59,085 nt of DNA from an uncultured Actinomycetes bacterium (GTDB lineage: Bacteria > Actinomycetota > Acidimicrobiia > Acidimicrobiales > Microtrichaceae): positions 1 to 59,085 of the forward strand of contig CAIQNH010000221.1 of the NCBI GenBank assembly GCA_903873135.1. The letters run 5' to 3'. The position numbers and the translations under genes were made by a program. Every line of letters begins with the position of its first letter. The stretch's first letter is position 1. The notes beneath the pieces were generated by a model. That model did no database searches and was not told the origin of the DNA. It saw nothing but the letters and a program-made list of their open reading frames with translations. Below, in pieces: positions 5,398-17,122 of the stretch.

Positions 5398-7017
5398 ATG
5401 TTGGTCGAGCTCGCAGTCCGGGACCTCGGCGTGATCGAGTCCGCCCGGATCACCCTGGCCCCCGGCGCCACGGCGCTGACCGGGGAGACCGGTGCCGGGA
5501 AGACCATGGTCGTCGAGGCGCTCCAGCTGGTGTGCGGCTCCCGCGCTGATCCACAGCGGGTCCGGCCCGGCGCCGCCGAGTCGGTGGTCGAGGCCCTGTT
5601 CGTGGCGCCGCCCTCGGCGCCGGGGGAGCCCGAGACCGAGTTCGTGGTCCGACGCGTCGTGCCCGTGGACGGGAGGTCCCGTGCGTACGTCGACGACGCC
5701 CTCGTTCCCGTCGGTCGGCTCGCCGAGCTGACCGAGGGCCTCGTCGAGATCCACGGCCAGCACTCCCAGCAGGGGTTGCTCTCGACGGGAGCCCAGCGGG
5801 CGGCGCTCGACCGCTTCGGGGGAGTCGACACGACCGTCCTCGAGGAGTGCCGCGCCGAGGTCCGTCGACTCGAGGCCGATCTCGAGTCCCTCGGCGGCGA
5901 CCCGGACGCCCGCCAGCGTGAACTGGAGCTGCTCCGCCACCAGGTGGCCGAGCTCGACGGTGCGTCCCCCGAGGCGGGCGAGGACGAGCGGCTGGAGCTC
6001 GAGGAGGACCTGCTCGACGGTGCCGTCGAGCACCGGGCGGCCGGTGACGCCGCGATCGCCGCGCTCGTCGACGACGCAGGGGTCGCCGACCGGCTGGCAC
6101 AGGTCGTCGCTTCGGTCGCCGGCCGCTCGCCCTACGCCGACCTGACCGCTCGGCTCGACACACTGGCCGTGGAGTTGACCGAGGTGACGAGCGACCTCCG
6201 GAGGGTCGCCGAGTCGATCGAGGTGGACGACGCCCGGCTCGCCGCAGTCCGTGAGCGCCGTCAGCTCCTCGCCGACCTCCGTCGCCGACACGGCGTCGGC
6301 AGCACCGACGAGCTGGTGGAGTTCGCCGAGGAGCTCAGGGGTCGACTCGGTGACCTCGAGGGACTGCTCGGTCGCGCCGAGGCCCTCGACGAGGAGCTCC
6401 GACTCGCCCGGGCGCGGCTGGCCGACGAGGCCGGGATCGTCGGTGACGCCCGCAGGGAGGCGGCTCCTCGTCTGGCGGCAGCGGTGGAGGCGACGCTGCA
6501 GCGACTCGCCCTGCCGTCGTGCCGGGTCCGGGTGCAGGTCGACGACGACCCGGCCCTCCCCGGTGCCGGGGGGCGGGTGGAGGTCCTGCTCGCCGCCAAT
6601 CCCGGCGCCCCTCCCGCGCCGCTGGCCCGCGTGGCCTCGGGCGGCGAGCTGAGCCGGGTCATGCTGGCCCTCCGTCTGGTCGGCTCCGGCGGCCCGGCGA
6701 CGATGGTGTTCGACGAGGTCGACGCCGGGATCGGCGGCGAGGCGGCCAACGCCGTCGCAGCGGCGCTCAGCGAGGTGGCGGACGAACACCAGGTCCTGCT
6801 CGTGACGCACCTGGCCCAGATCGCCTCCGTCGCCGACGCCCAGGTGCTCGTGGAGAAGACCACGGACGGCTCGTCCACGACCACGGGCCTGCGGCCGCTC
6901 GACCGGGCGGGCCGGGTGGTCGAGCTGTCCCGCATGCTCTCGGGGAGTCCGGACTCGGAGGTGGCACGGCAGCACGCCGAGGAGCTGCTCGCCTCCCGAG
7001 AGGGTGTCGGTCGGTGA
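5398..7017 (+). CDS. recN: DNA repair protein RecN
   Basis: Predicted 539 aa, an SMC-like ATPase acting in double-strand break repair. Walker A GETGAGKT is at about 29-36, the ABC signature ASGGELSRVM at about 413-422 and Walker B MVFDEVDAGIGG at about 436-447. The middle 300 residues are Glu/Arg/Leu-rich coiled coil, as expected. ATG 5398 gives the canonical short N-terminus (LVELAVRDLGVIES). It is one of the few ATG starts in the window. The stop overlaps steA by 4 bp. SOS control is usual for recN; I did not find a convincing LexA box in the short upstream gap. Confidence 0.95.
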   Translation: MLVELAVRDLGVIESARITLAPGATALTGETGAGKTMVVEALQLVCGSRADPQRVRPGAAESVVEALFVAPPSAPGEPETEFVVRRVVPVDGRSRAYVDDALVPVGRLAELTEGLVEIHGQHSQQGLLSTGAQRAALDRFGGVDTTVLEECRAEVRRLEADLESLGGDPDARQRELELLRHQVAELDGASPEAGEDERLELEEDLLDGAVEHRAAGDAAIAALVDDAGVADRLAQVVASVAGRSPYADLTARLDTLAVELTEVTSDLRRVAESIEVDDARLAAVRERRQLLADLRRRHGVGSTDELVEFAEELRGRLGDLEGLLGRAEALDEELRLARARLADEAGIVGDARREAAPRLAAAVEATLQRLALPSCRVRVQVDDDPALPGAGGRVEVLLAANPGAPPAPLARVASGGELSRVMLALRLVGSGGPATMVFDEVDAGIGGEAANAVAAALSEVADEHQVLLVTHLAQIASVADAQVLVEKTTDGSSTTTGLRPLDRAGRVVELSRMLSGSPDSEVARQHAEELLASREGVGR

Positions 7018-8213
7018 CCGGGATCTTCCGTCGACGTCGCATCGACACGGTGACCGAGCCCTCGGGGCCGGGCGTCACCGGCGTCGCCCGCGTCGGGCGA
7101 CGCACCAAGGAGCTCGTGCTCGAACTCGCGCCCGGGGAGATCGCGGTGATCGACCACGAGGACATCGACCGCCTCGCGGCCGAGGCCCTGGTCCGGTGCG
7201 CTCCGGCGGCGGTGCTCAACGCCGCCGTGTCCTCGACCGGGCGGTACCCGAACGAGGGTCCGCTGGTGCTGTTGAGCGCCGGGATCCCGCTCATCGACGA
7301 CGTCGGCCCCGACCTCCTCGAGCGGGTCGACGACGGTGACGTCCTGCGCATCACCGGCGACCACGTCGCCCGGGCCGACTCGCCCGACGAGGTGCTCCTC
7401 ACCGGGACACGGTTGAGCACCGCGGCGGTCCGGGACGTCCACCTGCGCAGCCGGTCGAGCATGGGCGACGCCCTCAACGACTTCGTGGAGAACACCGTCG
7501 AGTTCATCGACGACAACCGGGACATCCTCGACGACGACATCGCAGTCCCGGACCTGGGCCTCGACTGGCACCAGCGCCAGGTGCTGCTCGTCGTGCGCGG
7601 CAACGACTACCGGGACGACCTGGGCCTCCTGCGCCAGAGCGGCTACGTGCGCGAGGTCCGTCCGGTCCTCCTCGCCGTCGACGGCGGCGCTGACGCGCTG
7701 CTCGAGCTGGGGATGCGACCCGACGTGATCGTGGGGGACATGGACTCCGTCTCCGACGAGGCGCTGCGCTGCGGGGCGCGTCTGGTCGTCCACGGCTACC
7801 GCGACGGCAGGGTGCCGGCGGCCGTCCGACTGGACCGGCTCGGCCTCCCGTACGACGTCTTCACGGCGTCGGGCACCAGCGAGGACATCGGGATGCTGCT
7901 GGCGTACGGGCTGGGCGCCGAGCTGATCGTGGCCGTGGGGACCCACTCGTCGATGGTCGACTTCCTCGACAAGGGGCGGGCGGGCATGGCGTCGACCATG
8001 CTGACGAGGATGAAGGTCGGTCCGGTGCTCGTGGACGCCAAGGGGGTGAGCCGGCTCTACCAGGGCCGGATCCGCAAGCGCGACCTGCTGGTCCTGGTGC
8101 TCGCGGCGCTCTTCGCCATGGCCGTCGTGATCGCGATCAGCGAACCGATCCGGCTGCTGATCCGGGCGAACTGGGTCCTGCTCACCGGTGCGACGACCGG
8201 GTGGGCGACGTGA
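7014..8213 (+). CDS. steA: SteA-like septal envelope protein (thiamin pyrophosphokinase-like fold)
   Basis: Predicted 399 aa. The central region has the thiamin-pyrophosphokinase-like GDMDSVSDEAL motif near residues 240-250 but is otherwise unlike true kinases. A single transmembrane helix lies near the C-terminus (LLVLVLAALFAMAVVIAI, about 363-380). This is the architecture of Rv1697 and corynebacterial SteA, which forms a membrane complex with SteB at the division septum and controls peptidoglycan hydrolysis. The GTG start overlaps recN by 4 bp and the stop overlaps steB by 4 bp. The name rests on architecture plus gene order (recN-steA-steB); function in this organism is inferred. Confidence 0.85.
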   Translation: MTGIFRRRRIDTVTEPSGPGVTGVARVGRRTKELVLELAPGEIAVIDHEDIDRLAAEALVRCAPAAVLNAAVSSTGRYPNEGPLVLLSAGIPLIDDVGPDLLERVDDGDVLRITGDHVARADSPDEVLLTGTRLSTAAVRDVHLRSRSSMGDALNDFVENTVEFIDDNRDILDDDIAVPDLGLDWHQRQVLLVVRGNDYRDDLGLLRQSGYVREVRPVLLAVDGGADALLELGMRPDVIVGDMDSVSDEALRCGARLVVHGYRDGRVPAAVRLDRLGLPYDVFTASGTSEDIGMLLAYGLGAELIVAVGTHSSMVDFLDKGRAGMASTMLTRMKVGPVLVDAKGVSRLYQGRIRKRDLLVLVLAALFAMAVVIAISEPIRLLIRANWVLLTGATTGWAT

Positions 8214-9271
8214 TCAACTTCCGGTTCCACCTGATCAGCCTCGTCGCCGTGTTCCTCGCGCTCGGCATCGGCGTCGCCGCCGGAGCGTCCTTCGTCGACC
8301 GGGCCACGGTCGAGTCGCTCCAGGGCCGTGTGGAGGACCTCGACTCGGCGTACCGGGATCGTGGCGTGGAGCTGGACCTGACCCGGGAGGAGCTGGCCGT
8401 GTCCGACCGGCAGGCGGCTGCGCTCGCCGGTGACGGGAGCGTCGCGCTCGACGGGAGCCTCGAGGGCCAGCCGGTGACCCTGTTGGTCAGCGACGGTGTC
8501 CCCGCCGAACTGCTGAACCAGGTCCGGACGTCCCTCGCCGCTGCGGGCGTCGTCGACCCGGCGATCGTCCGGGTGCTGCCGGCTGCGGCGGTTCCGGATG
8601 AGATCGCCGCCGAGCGGATCGCGGCGGCGATCGGCCTCACGGACGCCGACGTCTCCGCCGAGGGCGTCCGTGACGCCGTGGTGGCCACGCTCGCCGCGGC
8701 GCTGGCCCGGCTGTCGGGTCCCGCACCGACGACTACGGACCCGGAGACACCTGCGCCCCTCCCGGTGTCGGGCTCGGGAACCGACCTGCCCGCCGATGCC
8801 GCCGCCGCGGTCGCCCTGCTCGAGCGTCTCGACCAGCTGGGCGTGGTGTCGGTCGAGTCCCCGTCGGGGATCGCCCTGGCGTCGTTCGGAGGCGGCACGG
8901 GGACACGGTTCCTCGAGCTCCTGACTCCGACCGACGACGTGTCCTCGGAGTCCGTGATGGTCCCCCTCGCCGAGGAGCTGTCGGCAGCGGCCCCGGGCAC
9001 CCTCACGGTGGGTGTGGCCGGTCCGCCGCGTCCCGAGGGTGGGATCGCCACCACGTCGACCGTCGCCGGCGCTGCCCCGACGGACCCGCTGTCGGAGCTC
9101 CGGTCGCCGCCGAGCTCGGAACGGCTGTCGACCGTGGACGACGTGGGGGAGTCGTTCGGACGGATCGCGGCGGTGTACGCCGTGGCCGAGCAGCGTCGGT
9201 CGGGGAACGTCGGTGCCTACGGCACCGGCCCGGGGGTCGTCGGGCCGTTCCCGACCACTCCGTCGGGGTGA
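8210..9271 (+). CDS. steB: SteB/MctB-family membrane-anchored protein
   Basis: Predicted 353 aa. GTG 8210 overlaps the steA stop and gives the family-typical N-terminus INFRFHLISLVAVFLALGIG, one transmembrane segment at about 7-25, followed by a short coiled coil (about 32-75) and a large extracellular domain. In-frame GTG 8201 would add three residues and is less likely. Homologues are mycobacterial Rv1698 (MctB, reported in copper resistance) and corynebacterial SteB, partner of SteA at the septum. Here it is immediately followed by a MurJ-like gene rather than by pyrG, so an envelope-growth role fits better than copper transport. Confidence 0.83.
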   Translation: MINFRFHLISLVAVFLALGIGVAAGASFVDRATVESLQGRVEDLDSAYRDRGVELDLTREELAVSDRQAAALAGDGSVALDGSLEGQPVTLLVSDGVPAELLNQVRTSLAAAGVVDPAIVRVLPAAAVPDEIAAERIAAAIGLTDADVSAEGVRDAVVATLAAALARLSGPAPTTTDPETPAPLPVSGSGTDLPADAAAAVALLERLDQLGVVSVESPSGIALASFGGGTGTRFLELLTPTDDVSSESVMVPLAEELSAAAPGTLTVGVAGPPRPEGGIATTSTVAGAAPTDPLSELRSPPSSERLSTVDDVGESFGRIAAVYAVAEQRRSGNVGAYGTGPGVVGPFPTTPSG

Positions 9272-10689
9272 GCACGATCGGCGAGGCCGGCGAGGTCTCG
9301 CTCGACGTGGTGGGCGACCCGCTCGCCGGTGCGTCGGATCGCAACCGGGCGGCCGCCCGCATGGCTGCGGTCACCCTGGTCAGCCGTGGCAGCGGGTTCG
9401 TCAGGGTCGTCGTGGTGGCGGCGGTCCTCGGCGCGACGTTCCTCGGGAACACGTACCAGACGGCGAACTCCATCCCGAACCTCCTGTTCGAGCTCGTGGC
9501 CGCCGGAGCCCTGCAGGCCGTGCTCGTACCCGTCCTCGTCGCCCGGACCGACCCACGGGAGTCCGACGAGGCCGCCTCCGCCGTGCTCGGAGCCACCACC
9601 GCGCTGATGGCGGCGCTCGCCGTGGTGGGGATGCTGTGCGCGCCGTTGGTCGCCCGCGCCCTGTTCGTCGCCGTCGAGGACCCGACCGTGCGTGACCAGC
9701 AGGTCCGGCTGGCCACGGTGTTGCTGTGGTGCTTCCTGCCGCAGGTGGTGTTCTACGGGCTGAACCTCGTGTCGACGGCCACGCTGCACGCCCGGGGGAG
9801 GTTCTCGCTGCCGGCCTTCGCGCCGTTCGTCAACAACGTGGTCGTGATCGGCGTCTACCTCGCCTTCGGCCGGTCGCTGGACGGGAGCGCACCGACGATG
9901 GAGCTGACGACCGGGCAGGTGCTCCTCCTCGGTCTCGGCACCACGGTCGGTGTGGTGGCGTTCTGCCTCCTCCCGTACGTCGGGGCCCGGCGCGTCGGGG
10001 TCGACCTCCGACTCAGTTGGCGGCCCGACCACCCTGCGGTGCGGCGGGTGGTGCGCCAGGGCGCGTGGGCCGGCGGGTACCTGGCGGCGGGTCAGGCGGT
10101 CCTCGTGGCGATCCTGGTCCTCGCCAACAGCGTGGAGGGCGGGGTGGTGGTCCAGCAGCTCGCCTACGTGCTGTTCCTCCTGCCCGTGTCGCTCGTCGTG
10201 GTACCGGTCGTCACCACGGCGTTCCCGAAGCTCGCACGGGACGCTGACCGTGGTGAGTGGTCGCAGTACCGGGCTGAGGTCCGACGGTCGGGCCGGATCG
10301 TGGTGGCCGCGTCCGTGGGTGCGGCCACCGTCCTGATCCTGGCCCGGGTACCCCTCGCCCACGTGGTGGCCTTCGGCAACGCTGCGGTCGCGACCGACCA
10401 GGTCGCCGTGGCGGTCGCCGGGTTCGCCGTCGGCCTGCCCGGCTTCGCCGCTGCGCTCCTGCTGACCCGGGCGAGCTACGCCGTCGGCGACACCCGGAAC
10501 CCGACCCTGGTGGCCGTGGCCGTCGCCGCACTGGCGGTCGGCGCCATGGTCGCCGCAGCGGCCTGGGCCTCGGACGAGGTCCGAGTGGGCGCGCTCGGCG
10601 TGGCGCACGCGCTCGCGTGGACCGTGGGAGCGGTCGTGCTGTGGTTCCTGCTCCGCCGGAACGTGCGACTCCGGACCGTCACCCCGTGA
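9268..10689 (+). CDS. murJ: MurJ/MviN-like lipid II flippase
   Basis: Predicted 473 aa, polytopic, roughly 13-14 hydrophobic segments. The N-terminal part matches the MurJ signature: VTLVSRGSGFVRVVVVAAVLG then GNTYQTANSIPNLLFELVAAGAL, with the family arginines in SRGSGFVR. MurJ moves lipid-linked peptidoglycan precursors across the inner membrane (MOP superfamily). A 30-residue cytoplasmic N-terminus precedes the first helix. It overlaps steB and the next gene by 4 bp each. The location inside the steAB-pyrG block is unusual. It could instead flip another polyprenyl-linked sugar, given the glycosyltransferase and MraY/WecA-like genes downstream. Confidence 0.85.
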   Translation: MSTIGEAGEVSLDVVGDPLAGASDRNRAAARMAAVTLVSRGSGFVRVVVVAAVLGATFLGNTYQTANSIPNLLFELVAAGALQAVLVPVLVARTDPRESDEAASAVLGATTALMAALAVVGMLCAPLVARALFVAVEDPTVRDQQVRLATVLLWCFLPQVVFYGLNLVSTATLHARGRFSLPAFAPFVNNVVVIGVYLAFGRSLDGSAPTMELTTGQVLLLGLGTTVGVVAFCLLPYVGARRVGVDLRLSWRPDHPAVRRVVRQGAWAGGYLAAGQAVLVAILVLANSVEGGVVVQQLAYVLFLLPVSLVVVPVVTTAFPKLARDADRGEWSQYRAEVRRSGRIVVAASVGAATVLILARVPLAHVVAFGNAAVATDQVAVAVAGFAVGLPGFAAALLLTRASYAVGDTRNPTLVAVAVAALAVGAMVAAAAWASDEVRVGALGVAHALAWTVGAVVLWFLLRRNVRLRTVTP

Positions 10690-11765
10690 GCGAACCCGTG
10701 CTCGACGTCGCCCAGGTCGTGCCGCAGGCGGTCGGTGGGATCCGCTCGCACGTGCGCAGTCTCGTGCCCCGTCTCGAGTCCCTCGACGTCCGCTCGGTGG
10801 TGTTCGGCCCCGACGGCGACCTGCTCGACGGAGGTGCGGTGGTGCGGGTGCCGATCCCGGCCCGGATCCGCTCGACCGGCTGGGCGGCAGCCGTCCGGGT
10901 GCTGCGCGGCGACCTGGGCGAGGCGCGGGTCGTGCACGCCCACGGACTCAAGGCGGCCTGGGTGGCCGACCGCGCACGGGGCTCCCGGCCGCTCGTGGTC
11001 ACGGTGCACAACCTCCCCCTCCCGGCCGCCGACGGACGTCCTCGACGTCTCGCTGAACGGGTCGCCGCGAGCGTGCTGGCGCGCGCCGACCGGCTCGTCG
11101 CCCCGTCGGCCGCAGTGCTCGACGCCCTCCCCGCGGCGTTGCGCGTCCGGGCCGAGGTGGTCCTCCCCGTGGTCGACGTCGCGACGCCGACCAGGTCCGC
11201 CGCCGACGTCCGGTCGGAGCTCGGCGTGCCGGCAGCGGCACCACTCGTCGTCGTGGTCGCTCGGCTCCACCGTCAGAAGGGGCTCGACGTCCTCGCGCGA
11301 GCCTGGCCGACGATCCGTCGGTCGTCGTCCGAGTGTCGGCTCGTGGTGGTCGGAGACGGTCCGGAACGCGCCGTCGTGGAGCGGACGCTGGGCTCGCTCG
11401 ACGGTGTGCTCCTCGCAGGCGCCCGGTCACCAGCGACGGACGTGATCGCCGCCGCCGACCTGACCCTCGTGACGTCGCGGTGGGAGGCCGTGCCCCTGGT
11501 GCTCGTCGAGTCGGTCGTCCTCGGGACCCCGGCGGTGAGCACCGACGTGGGTGCGGCACGTGCGCTGCTCGGTGAGCCCGGTCTCGGCGCGATCGTCCCG
11601 GTGGGCGACGACGCTGCGGTCGCCGCTGCGGTGCTCGAGCAGCTGCGGGTCGGCGTGCGGGCGAGCAGACCGGCCGGACGACGGTCGCGGCCGGAGTGGC
11701 CGCGATCCCTCCGTCCGGAGCCGCTCGTGGAGCGGCTGGCCGAGATCTACCGGGAGCTGGCGTGA
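10686..11765 (+). CDS. GT4-family glycosyltransferase
   Basis: Predicted 359 aa, GT-B fold. The N-terminal half has the VPQAVGGIRSHVRSLVPRL start and VVHAHGLKAAW; the C-terminal half has VVVVARLHRQKGLDVLARAWP, VVGDGPERAV and the donor-binding SRWEAVPLVLVESVVLGTP (E-x7-E type). These are hallmarks of retaining GT4 enzymes that use nucleotide sugars. Donor and acceptor cannot be deduced. Coupled by GTGA overlaps to murJ before and to the membrane protein after, it probably adds a sugar to a lipid-linked or envelope acceptor on the cytoplasmic face. Confidence 0.88.
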   Translation: MSEPVLDVAQVVPQAVGGIRSHVRSLVPRLESLDVRSVVFGPDGDLLDGGAVVRVPIPARIRSTGWAAAVRVLRGDLGEARVVHAHGLKAAWVADRARGSRPLVVTVHNLPLPAADGRPRRLAERVAASVLARADRLVAPSAAVLDALPAALRVRAEVVLPVVDVATPTRSAADVRSELGVPAAAPLVVVVARLHRQKGLDVLARAWPTIRRSSSECRLVVVGDGPERAVVERTLGSLDGVLLAGARSPATDVIAAADLTLVTSRWEAVPLVLVESVVLGTPAVSTDVGAARALLGEPGLGAIVPVGDDAAVAAAVLEQLRVGVRASRPAGRRSRPEWPRSLRPEPLVERLAEIYRELA

Positions 11766-13945
11766 GGCGGATCGGGCTGCTCGCGCTCGCCGGGGTCGTG
11801 CTCCTCGTGGCCCCGGCATCGGGTGCCACGGCAGGGGAGACCGCATCGCCAGGACGCCCCCGCGTGCTCGTGCTGACGCTTCCCGACACGACGTGGTCCT
11901 CGTTCCTGGCCATCCCCGACGGATCCGTCCGGTCGGTGGCCGAGCAGTCGGCCGTCGCGTCGCTGGCCGTCCGGACTGCCGATCCGGTCGACACCGACGT
12001 GTCGGCCTACCTCACGTTGGGTGCGGGACGACGAGCGACTGCGGCAGATCCGGAGGTGGCGGGTTCCGCCCGACAGGAGGCCGACGGGTCCGTGACGTCG
12101 ACCGACTTCGCCGCCCAGGCCGAACTGAACGCACGGGGTCGCTACGGCGCGACTGCGGGAGCGCTCGGAACGGCACTCGCGGCGTCCGATCGCCGACCGG
12201 CGGTGGTCGGTGACGCCGGCCCACCGGGCACCACGGAGCAGCGCGCCGTGGCGCTCGCCACGGCGGACGGGTCCGGCACCACCCCCGTCGGTCGGGTCGA
12301 CGGACTGGTGGTCGCGGAACCCCTCGCTCCGGGTGGTTCCCGGCTCGACGAGGACGCCGTGGTGGCGGCGACCGGGGACGCCCTCGAGTCGGCGGACCTC
12401 GTGGTCGTCGAGCTGTCGGACGTACGCCGTGCCGTCGAGGCCGGGTCCGACGTGACGGCGGTGGCGTCGGCGACGGAGCGCACCGATCGGCTCGTGGGCC
12501 GGCTCGTCGAGCTGGCGACTCCGTCGGACACGGTGCTCCTGGTCTCACCCACGACTCCGGGCGAGGTTCGCCAGCTCGGCGTGTTCGCCCTCCGCGGCCC
12601 GGGCGTGGTGCCCGGGTGGGCGCAGTCGGCCACGACCAGGCGAGCCGGGTACGTGGCGCTGGAGGACGTCGCCGCCACGTTGCTGGGCACGCTCGGCGTC
12701 CCCGTGCCGGACACCGTCGGGGACACGCCGGTCTCGTCCGTCGAGGGGACGCCGGTCGGTGCACGACTCGCGGCGCTCGACCGGGCATCGGAGCGTGCGG
12801 AGGCCCGGGACCGGGCGGTGGGCCCCGTGGCGGTCGCCCTGGTCCTGCTGGCGATCCTCAGCGGGCTCGTGGCGGTGGTGCTGCTGCGCATCGGCCGTGA
12901 TGCGTCGGCCACCCACCGGTGGCTCGCGTGCACGACCTGTGCGGTGCCGGTGGCGGCGTTCCTGACCGGCTGGTGGCCCGGCGCAGCTGCCGGTCCGACC
13001 GCGATCACGGTGGTGGTGCTCGTCGGGGCGTCGGTCGTGGGAGCGGTGTCGGTGGCGCTCACGGAGCGTACGGTGCCGCCGTCCGCCACGCTCGTGCCCA
13101 CGGGCCTGACCGTGGCGGTCCTGCTGCTCGATGCCGTGACGGGCGGGCGACTCCAGCTCGACACGCCGCTCGGGTACTCGGCCACGGTCGGCGGTCGCTA
13201 CAGCGGGCTGGGCAACCAGGCGTCGGCCTACCTCGTGGCGGCGACGCTGGCCGTCCTGACCCTCGGGTGGTCGCTCGGACTCCGGCGCGGGGTTCCGCCC
13301 CGCCGGCTGCTCGCCGGTGGCGCAGCACTCGGTGTCGTCGTCGCCGCCGTGACGGCGTGGCCGAGGTTCGGATCCGACGTCGGCGGCACCGTCGCCGTGC
13401 TGGTCGGCGTCGCCGTGGCGCTCGCGCTCCTGGTGCGCCCGGACGCGACGCCGTGGCGGTTGCTGCTGGTGTTCCTCGGCGCCGGACTGGTCGCCTCGGC
13501 GCTGCTCGGCGTGCTCGGCTGGTGGGACCGGTCGCGACCGCCCGAACAGCGCACCCACCTCGGTCGGTTCGTCGACAGCGTCGTCGCAGGTGACGCGCCC
13601 CGGGTGCTGTCGAGGCGGTGGGCGGCGGCCACCGACGTGTTCACGTCCACGCCCTGGACGTTGTTCGTGCCCGTCCTGCTGCTGGCGCTCCTCCTGCTCG
13701 CCTGGCGTCCGGGCGGTCGTCCGTGGGCGGTCGTCGAACGTCACCCCGAGCTGGCCCCCTTCGGGGCGTCGGCGGCTGCTGCGGGAGCGGTGGGCTGGCT
13801 GGTCAACGACTCGGGGGTGGCGGTGGCGGCGTGCGTCGTGGCCGTCGCCGTCCCCGTCGTGGCCGCCGTGTCCGTGGCGCCGGTCCGGCCGGGTGTGGCG
13901 GCGTCGACCGCTGGTGACCGCACCACGCCGGTGGTGGTCGGGTGA
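11762..13945 (+). CDS. Large membrane protein with alkaline-phosphatase-like exported domain
   Basis: Predicted 727 aa, function unknown. A signal peptide or anchor (IGLLALAGVVLLVAPASG, about 4-21) is followed by an exported domain of about 330 residues that resembles degenerate alkaline-phosphatase/sulfatase folds: VLVLTLPDTTW, ADLVVVELSDV, SDTVLLVSPTTP, GVFALRGPGVVPGW and ALEDVAATLLGTLGVP, the last like the end of phosphoglyceromutase/arylsulfatase domains. About ten membrane helices follow, with a conserved-looking GYSATVGGRYSGLGNQASAY loop. Metal ligands are not all evident, so activity is uncertain. Its tight coupling to glycosyltransferase and MraY-like genes suggests transfer or hydrolysis of an envelope phosphate group, which is inference. 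Confidence 0.75.
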   Translation: MRRIGLLALAGVVLLVAPASGATAGETASPGRPRVLVLTLPDTTWSSFLAIPDGSVRSVAEQSAVASLAVRTADPVDTDVSAYLTLGAGRRATAADPEVAGSARQEADGSVTSTDFAAQAELNARGRYGATAGALGTALAASDRRPAVVGDAGPPGTTEQRAVALATADGSGTTPVGRVDGLVVAEPLAPGGSRLDEDAVVAATGDALESADLVVVELSDVRRAVEAGSDVTAVASATERTDRLVGRLVELATPSDTVLLVSPTTPGEVRQLGVFALRGPGVVPGWAQSATTRRAGYVALEDVAATLLGTLGVPVPDTVGDTPVSSVEGTPVGARLAALDRASERAEARDRAVGPVAVALVLLAILSGLVAVVLLRIGRDASATHRWLACTTCAVPVAAFLTGWWPGAAAGPTAITVVVLVGASVVGAVSVALTERTVPPSATLVPTGLTVAVLLLDAVTGGRLQLDTPLGYSATVGGRYSGLGNQASAYLVAATLAVLTLGWSLGLRRGVPPRRLLAGGAALGVVVAAVTAWPRFGSDVGGTVAVLVGVAVALALLVRPDATPWRLLLVFLGAGLVASALLGVLGWWDRSRPPEQRTHLGRFVDSVVAGDAPRVLSRRWAAATDVFTSTPWTLFVPVLLLALLLLAWRPGGRPWAVVERHPELAPFGASAAAAGAVGWLVNDSGVAVAACVVAVAVPVVAAVSVAPVRPGVAASTAGDRTTPVVVG

Positions 13946-14799
13946 CGGCCACGGCGCTCGGCCTCCTCGCCGGGCTCGTCGTCGGAGGGCTCCTCTGGGT
14001 CGTCCTCGAGCCGTCGCTCGACGTGCCGGCCCTCCGGCGGACGAACCACCGGGGGGTGGAGCTCACGACCGCTGCCGGCGTCGTGGTCCCGCTCACGCTG
14101 GTGGTCCTGGCGGCGCTCCTCCGGTTCCTGCAGATGGCCGCGTCGTGGCAACCCGGGTGGGACCAGCTGGTCGGGCCGTCGGTCACCGCCGCGCTCGGCT
14201 TCGCCCTGTTCGGCCTCGTGGACGACGTGGCCGGGGTGGGCGAGTCGGGCGGCTTCCGCCACCACCTCCGGACCCTGGCCGACGGTCGCATCACCACGGG
14301 GATGCTCAAGCTCCTCGGTGGTGCGGCAGTGGCGCTGCTGACCTCCGCGGCCCTGTCGCTCAGCGACGGCGGGGTGGTGGGCATGCTCCGCGACGCCGCG
14401 GTCGTGGCGCTCGCCGCCAACGCCGTCAACCTGCTCGACCGCCGGCCGGGTCGCTCCACCAAGGTGGCGCTGCTCGTCTTCGCAGGCCTGGCGCTGTGGT
14501 CGAGGTCGCCGTCGCTGACCGGACCGGCCCTGGGCGTGGGAGCCGCCGCAGCGCTGCTGCCGGCCGAGCTGCGTGAGCGGGCGATGCTCGGGGACACCGG
14601 CTCCAACGCGGTCGGTGCGCTCCTCGGTCTGGCGGCACTGGCCTCGTTCCCCTCGCCCGGTGGCCGGTGGGTCCTGCTCGCGGCGCTCCTCGCGTTCAAC
14701 CTGGGCAGCGAGTTCGTCTCCTACTCGCGGGTGATCGACGCGGTCGCTCCGCTCCGGTTCCTGGATCGGCTCGGACGCACCGACGAGGCGACGGACTGA
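13942..14799 (+). CDS. MraY/WecA-like polyprenyl-phosphate sugar-phosphate transferase, divergent
   Basis: Predicted 285 aa, about eight to ten membrane helices. It retains the acidic pair in LFGLVDDVAGVGE (about 90-102), the NAVNLLD motif and LGDTGSNAVG, which are MraY/WecA hallmarks for Mg-dependent transfer of a UDP-sugar phosphate to undecaprenyl phosphate. The usual DG after NLxDG is replaced by DRRPG and the histidine-rich HIHH loop is absent, being replaced by a region ending APLRFLDRLGR. The real MraY should be in the division cluster elsewhere, so this is a paralogue of uncertain activity. It ends the run of GTGA overlaps; pyrG follows after a 78-bp gap with its own promoter. Confidence 0.82.
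   Translation: MTATALGLLAGLVVGGLLWVVLEPSLDVPALRRTNHRGVELTTAAGVVVPLTLVVLAALLRFLQMAASWQPGWDQLVGPSVTAALGFALFGLVDDVAGVGESGGFRHHLRTLADGRITTGMLKLLGGAAVALLTSAALSLSDGGVVGMLRDAAVVALAANAVNLLDRRPGRSTKVALLVFAGLALWSRSPSLTGPALGVGAAAALLPAELRERAMLGDTGSNAVGALLGLAALASFPSPGGRWVLLAALLAFNLGSEFVSYSRVIDAVAPLRFLDRLGRTDEATD

Positions 14800-14877: not shown

Positions 14878-17122
<2,245 letters not shown>

Follow-up and report, generated by a model that had tools for sequence, protein, structure and literature searches.

An MraY-like gene is the most constant partner of the cell-separation gene steA in Actinomycetota and a clostridial class, and SteA is altered where it is missing

In corynebacteria and mycobacteria, the final step of cell separation involves SteA and SteB. 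A structural paper from 2026 leaves the ligand of SteA open. We analyzed the steAB locus of an uncultured member of the Microtrichaceae (Actinomycetota; assembly GCA_903873135.1, 257 contigs, 98.3% complete) in a 59,085-nucleotide (nt) stretch of contig CAIQNH010000221.1, referred to below as the window. The gene order is tlyA-nadK-recN-steA-steB-murJ-GT4-PPTM-mraYL-pyrG, where GT4 is a glycosyltransferase gene; the labels PPTM, for a 727-amino acid (aa) protein, and mraYL, for a MraY-like gene, were coined in this analysis. In our comparison, steA had its most constant partner in mraYL, which goes with it nearly everywhere examined except in the apparent mycobacteria-type lineage in which SteA has been studied. 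It also revealed, as a new result, that near-invariant columns of SteA are altered where mraYL is missing and that the solved SteA proteins of Mycobacterium tuberculosis (MtSteA) and Corynebacterium glutamicum (CgSteA) are of the altered form. This pairing may reveal what SteA senses or does.

In a phylum sample of 296 Actinomycetota genomes, SteA exceeded its cut-off in 112, and mraYL, counted as present at E <= 1e-25, was found in 103. Both genes occurred in 98 genomes, SteA alone in 14, mraYL alone in five, and neither in 179. The 14 SteA-only genomes comprised 12 with mraYL-less loci, one in which the locus meets a contig edge (G244), and one with two fragments (G300). SteA and mraYL lay no more than 12 kb apart, always on one strand, in 88 of the 98 genomes; in the remaining 10 they were on different contigs (eight genomes), 14 kb apart (G214), or 1.8 Mb apart (G034). 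The second sample consisted of 293 genomes from the class of Clostridioides mangenotii. SteA exceeded the cut-off in 47 of them, and mraYL matched at E 3.4e-58 or better in 47, the next score being 2.1e-13. The two sets were identical (the same 47, and none of the other 246), and mraYL was located 0.7-1.8 kb downstream of SteA on the same strand in 46 of the 47 and on another contig in G485. Because genomes are non-independent samples, the Fisher values for this co-occurrence are descriptive only. In five clostridial genomes (G460, G483, G505, G525, and G544), the SteA match ended at position 320-340 of 369 and mraYL was only 0.7-0.8 kb away; there is little room for both steB and a GT2 glycosyltransferase gene, and these genomes perhaps have SteA and mraYL without steB.

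To characterize SteA itself, we compared 124 different rows from mraYL-bearing loci with 12 rows from mraYL-less loci, a column being regarded as near-invariant when it was at least 98% invariant among the mraYL-bearing rows (51 columns). In the mraYL-less rows, the majority letter was changed at 15 of these 51 columns (29%), which include columns of the TPK-like pocket and a His of the N-domain; of the 25 polar columns, 10 were changed. For the neighboring genes, which served as controls, the corresponding counts were 1/148 for pyrG, 0/29 for recN, 0/17 for nadK, and 0/27 for tlyA (1/221 together), from 101, 99, 91, and 86 rows with mraYL and 12, 12, 12, and 9 rows without it, respectively. 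A signature of 14 SteA residues (Table 1) was complete in 116 of the 124 mraYL-bearing rows, with 13 residues in six and 12 in two; 12 positions were identical in all 124 rows, whereas E290 was found in 120 and H311 in 118. The mraYL-less rows kept 0-3 of the 14; the poorest discriminators were T31, still present in 5 of the 12 rows, and G196, present in 7. The signature was chosen after the groups had been seen, so that its split is partly by construction, and the count of 15 of 51 columns is the fairer measure. Nine SteA rows without mraYL in the stretch, which were not used in choosing the signature, kept 13-14 of the 14 residues; eight of these genomes carry mraYL elsewhere (G034 among them), and the ninth, G244, ends at the contig edge.

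Alignments read by eye placed both solved structures with the altered form. In MtSteA (9HMY), all 14 signature positions were replaced, and D227, D242, D244, and D291 were kept. CgSteA (9HMZ) retained G196, D223, G224, and S289 but had lost T31, K32, H48, R195, S245, H260, E290, H311, and K320; D242 and D244 were also changed. The replacements in the mraYL-less rows differed from row to row, which fits relaxed constraint.

The original prediction described the genes between steB and pyrG as an inserted block forming one unit. Our survey of loci gave a different picture. Stretches centered on steA were examined for 91 of the 111 SteA genomes besides the source genome, and pyrG was visible in 77; the other 14 were excluded from the locus count, which covered genes on either strand that lie between steA and pyrG or immediately precede steA. 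Among the 77 loci, steB was present in 76, mraYL in 65, GT2 in 40, PPTM in 28, GT4 in 26, and murJ in 23, and thus the four genes do not behave as one fixed unit; the presence of the MurJ-like, GT4, and 727-aa genes varies by lineage. The 12 loci without mraYL came from two families (f88 with 11 genomes, f112 with one); steB, present in 11 of them, is followed by pyrG, and the other genes are all absent. The block recurs within the taxonomic order of the window, and a locus carrying mraYL, whether or not the other genes accompany it, is the common state in both the Actinomycetota and the clostridial-class samples. SteA and mraYL trees, calculated by a quick method from 62 named loci (the names of L107 and L117 being doubtful) and the window, placed the two phyla largely apart, with 3 and 4 label changes, respectively. 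On the basis of this common state and the trees, we rejected the idea that the block had been inserted or gained horizontally.

The named loci were the best 80 of at least 584 relatives and hence were selected by mraYL. Among them, the Kineosporia, Kribbella, Actinoplanes, and Catellatospora loci were arranged steA-steB-mraYL-murJ-GT4, with PPTM also in Actinoplanes and Catellatospora. The usual order in Bacillota was steA-steB-GT2-mraYL, and pyrG was not a neighbor except in L117, the name of which is doubtful. The gene preceding steA was identified by Pfam as Spo0A in the one Bacillota locus scanned (L179), and three more look alike; the structural paper reports SteAB directly downstream of Spo0A in some Clostridia, as well as steA-steB fusions (PMC12977500).

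Several loci departed from these arrangements. In L091 and L264 (G034), the recN-pyrG block held murJ, GT2, PPTM, and mraYL without steAB, and SteA and steB lay 1.8 Mb away. Four genomes of family f83 (L277-L280), which are large and perhaps belong to Streptomyces, had the order recN-mraYL-GT4, and neither steA nor steB was found within the stretch. GT2 and murJ were inverted relative to steAB in L215, L218, and L220, whereas PPTM and mraYL ran the same way as steAB. A DUF3866 gene (PF12982) followed mraYL in L162 (10594-11685), and similar-looking open reading frames (ORFs) were seen by eye behind pyrG in L189 and L213. The record titles of L107, L109, L113, L117, and L122 (Acidobacteria, Bifidobacterium breve, and Thermoanaerobacterales) do not match their gene content, and these are probably misnamed metagenome bins.

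The features of the window are listed in Table 1. Six consecutive GTGA overlaps, from recN through mraYL, were read directly in the sequence, and the ORFs, their lengths, and their order bear out the original prediction that each gene overlaps the next and that the run is coupled to recN-steA-steB; the spacing between mraYL and pyrG is 78 nt.

Table 1. Features of the steAB locus in the window
Feature	Position	Strand	Basis
recN, start of the overlapping run	5398..7017	+	ORF and sequence; named by eye and position, no family search
steA, membrane-anchored TPK-like septal protein	7014..8213	+	NF040608, 440.4 bits (equivalog cut-off 150)
SteA signature span (T31 K32 H48 R195 G196 D223 G224 S245 H260 S289 E290 H311 K320 G324)	7104..7985	+	
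steB (MctB family)	8210..9271	+	PF11382, 119.1 bits (gathering score 25.6)
MurJ-family (MOP) flippase paralogue	9268..10689	+	PF03023, 195.1 bits (gathering score 27.4)
GT4 glycosyltransferase	10686..11765	+	PF13692, 92.5 bits (cut-off 27); PF13439
PPTM (727 aa): signal, alkaline-phosphatase-fold domain at ~32-328, ~11 membrane helices	11762..13945	+	Structure model
mraYL, predicted MraY/WecA-fold sugar-1-phosphate transferase	13942..14799	+	PF00953, 29.0 bits (gathering score 27); structure model
pyrG, right-hand border	14878..16557	+	ORF and sequence; named by eye and position

By fold, Pfam score, and Asp motifs, the mraYL product is a divergent member of the PNPT superfamily and a predicted transferase. 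Its structure model (predicted local distance difference test [pLDDT] score, 93.5) has the fold of MraY (VIA Z 21.8, root-mean-square deviation [rmsd] 3.4, 242 residues aligned), the first unrelated row being at Z 4.1. The motifs DD, NxxNLxD, and GDxG are present and align with the MraY motifs of 8g01, and all 43 rows compared, drawn from both phyla, share D94, D95, N160, N163, D166, P169-G170-R171, and D218. The motif partners are altered: DDxxG and NxxNLxDxxPGR differ from the usual PNPT forms. The score against the MraY equivalog model TIGR00445 was 9.6 bits and did not reach the cut-off of 192.05. The C-terminal histidine cluster of PNPT proteins was not seen by eye in mraYL, the profile alignments stopping short of that region. 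The source genome encodes two other PF00953 proteins.

The source genome also has a second MurJ, on contig C95, and the MurJ-like protein of the window is thus a paralogue; it scored 201.9 against the MurJ equivalog model TIGR01695, under the cut-off of 235.55. The cavity residues of Escherichia coli MurJ are R18, R24, D39, R52, and R270. In 86 rows of the MurJ-like protein (some loci being represented twice), the R18 site was kept in 86 and the R24 site in 84, whereas the R52 site was E or D in 86 and the R270 site was T, V, A, or another residue. The other MurJ of the genome likewise has E and A at the R52 and R270 sites, but has D at the D39 site. The GT2 glycosyltransferase of other loci belongs to PF00535; its nearest NCBIfam models were AglJ and glucosyl-3-phosphoglycerate synthase, both far under their cut-offs.

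PPTM accompanies the SteA system but is not always inside the locus. It was present in at least 92 of the 296 phylum genomes, at least 89 of which are among the 112 with SteA; these counts, made at E 1e-15, are lower bounds, since G250 is not listed although the gene was shown in its locus. Among the 98 genomes of the window's family and order that both searches covered, PPTM was found in 55 (at E 1e-3, some matches being partial), mraYL in 54, and both in 52. All six named genomes tested, three of them Bacillota, contained PPTM, which adjoins a GT4 gene in Desulforamulus aeronauticus. Two copies per locus were observed in L096, L099, L117, L136, and L138. In three phylum members with genomes of ~1.4-1.6 Mb (L072, L074, and L076), PPTM lay beside a gene that is parB-like by eye, with no steAB in the stretch.

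No Pfam or NCBIfam model matched PPTM above its cut-off. In the structure model (pLDDT 89.2), residues ~32-328 superposed on iPGM (VIA Z 24.6, rmsd 2.7, 247 aligned), and a match to the alkaline-phosphatase-superfamily fold was also obtained with Foldseek (E 1.3e-4). The original prediction had assigned terminal processing to a phosphatase; the domain has a phosphatase-type fold but lacks the metal ligands. The sites of the strand-1 Asp and DH were placed by alignment and that of DxxxH by eye. In the A3 alignment (24 rows), the strand-1 Asp occurred in 7 rows (P in the window), and the DxxxH His and the DH-site Asp and His in none; in the A5 alignment (30 rows), the strand-1 Asp occurred in none, the DxxxH His in one, and Asp in none and one of the DH columns, respectively. 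Phosphatase activity of PPTM is thus unsupported. Conservation was strongest in the membrane half: D457, R479, G482, G537, and R618 were found in 24/24 rows and H599 and D683 in 23/24 of A3, and R479, G482, G537, and D589 in 30/30 and H599 and D683 each in 25 of A5. In the model, the clusters at 457-485, 534-542, 589-602, and 682-685 share a side with the outer domain; a positive-inside check showed that an outer loop of 42 residues carries seven K/R. The membrane half gave no PDB profile match below E 0.6, and no sequence or fold match of PPTM to an O-antigen-type ligase or polymerase was obtained, the membrane half not having been folded alone. The model suggests that PPTM may be an outward-facing transferase, ligase, or polymerase.

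On balance, we favor the explanation that SteA is the nucleotide- or nucleotide-sugar-binding partner in a lipid-linked glycan route that mraYL starts and that is coordinated with cell separation, and that the locus represents an ancestral steAB operon. Starting from the observed gene set, common state, co-occurrence, folds, and pocket change, we infer strict ancestry and every catalytic and signaling step as follows. The mraYL product would use a nucleotide sugar at the inner membrane face to start a lipid-linked glycan; GT4, or GT2 in Bacillota and many Actinomycetota, would add a sugar; and the MurJ-family protein would flip the lipid-linked product, which PPTM, the conserved clusters of which are outside in the model, may transfer or polymerize there. 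The TPK-like pocket of SteA would bind the nucleotide sugar that the route uses, or its nucleotide product, and SteAB would thereby couple the supply of nucleotide sugar to septal wall cutting, with SteB passing the signal to a wall hydrolase. Upon loss of mraYL, the pocket of SteA would decay, leaving the scaffold role alone. The original prediction already included such a route, tied to septum control; a tie of the route to SteAB stands as a fair inference from the overlapping run and the co-occurrence of mraYL and PPTM with SteA, and the phosphatase step does not. It is quite possible, though we propose it more tentatively, that SteA was at its root an enzyme or a closed-pocket nucleotide-sugar sensor paired with mraYL in Bacillota and Actinomycetota, and that the SteA proteins studied so far are decayed scaffolds from a lineage that lost mraYL. 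If so, the ligand sought for SteA would be the substrate of mraYL.

Several observations weigh against this explanation. M. tuberculosis and C. glutamicum presumably lack mraYL, as judged from their gene order and from reading family f88 as mycobacterial, a reading helped by the resemblance of its SteA letters (e.g., G237) to those of MtSteA. The 12 mraYL-less SteA rows represent two families, in which mraYL may have been lost once or twice, so that the pocket change and the loss amount to few independent events. All five mraYL-only genomes belong to family f83, mraYL is remote from SteA in G034, and the recN-pyrG region is a conserved neighborhood in any case. The cavity residues were dropped as evidence for a changed MurJ cargo, since the R52 and R270 replacements are found in the genome's other MurJ as well. 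Finally, a preprint reports that mycobacterial Rv1697 works via the kinase MtrB and not via SteB (PMC12338722).

A rather unlikely alternative is that SteA itself is an enzyme, in which the TPK-like domain and a mobile N-domain (T31, K32, and H48) form a composite active site to produce or cleave a phosphorylated mraYL substrate, in which case the SteA proteins of mycobacteria and corynebacteria would be degenerate descendants. The near-complete identity of the signature across the 124 mraYL-bearing rows is in keeping with a catalytic site, as are a GDxDS motif and a weak sequence match to the 6-hydroxymethyl-dihydropterin pyrophosphokinase 8sd5 (E 6.5e-4). The structural paper compares the N-domain to phosphohistidine swiveling domains and describes SteA as being without the catalytic His (PMC12977500); the mraYL-bearing rows have an invariant His (H48) in that domain, possibly not at the phosphohistidine position. 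Against this alternative, TPK and MptE-type activities use ATP. CgSteA, however, answered to GDP and UDP and not to ADP or triphosphates (PMC12977500).

It is very improbable that the genes have no functional tie and merely share a stable neighborhood between recN and pyrG. In most of the loci compared, tlyA, nadK, recN, and pyrG are indeed also in place, but SteA and mraYL share presence and absence and not order alone, as the clostridial class shows, and in the named Bacillota loci pyrG is generally not the neighbor. The change where mraYL is gone is specific to SteA, and G034 keeps the full signature though its mraYL is distant. A second, septum-specific lipid II route built from MraY, MurG, and MurJ paralogues is very improbable: MraY-type and MurJ-type paralogues do adjoin the cell-separation pair, and the MurJ-like protein matches PF03023, but both proteins fall below their equivalog cut-offs, the glycosyltransferase is of the GT4 or GT2 and not the MurG type, and the genome has two further PF00953 proteins and another MurJ.

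The pairing of SteA with mraYL bears on the question of the ligand of SteA. According to the structural paper, the pocket of SteA is TPK-like and conserved among the homologues compared, GDP and UDP stabilize CgSteA, the result for MtSteA is inconclusive, and the ligand is unknown (PMC12977500). A near-constant partner enzyme that, by family, uses nucleotide sugars would name a candidate class of ligand, and the informative species would be the ones that carry mraYL together with an unaltered SteA signature, not the ones whose SteA was crystallized. An undescribed glycan route, including a protein family above no Pfam or NCBIfam cut-off, would thereby be linked to a cell-separation pair in two phyla. 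Our search of open-access papers, which did not extend to figures and supplements, found none linking steAB to a MraY-like or glycosyltransferase partner. The main text of PMC12977500 contains none of the words "glycosyl", "MraY", and "neighbor", "glycosyl" is absent from PMC12338722, and "glycosyltransferase" is absent from PMC6705760.

The set in the window resembles the PNPT-started routes (MraY and WecA/TagO) in having a protein with the PNPT fold and Asp motifs, a glycosyltransferase, a MOP flippase, and a polytopic protein with an outer domain; it differs in the DDxxG and NxxNLxDxxPGR subfamily motifs and in its steAB operon context, and no described product was found. PPTM has, at residues ~32-328, the fold of the alkaline-phosphatase superfamily (iPGM, NPP, and LtaS type), but the metal ligands are not conserved and conservation peaks in the membrane half. 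With the SteAB-RipA system of Corynebacterium and Mycobacterium, the locus shares steA, steB, the pocket region of SteA, and septal cell separation as the known function. Most signature residues are, however, gone from MtSteA and CgSteA in the solved structures, and the 12 mraYL-less loci, which we take to be of that lineage or near it, lack the other genes of the block.

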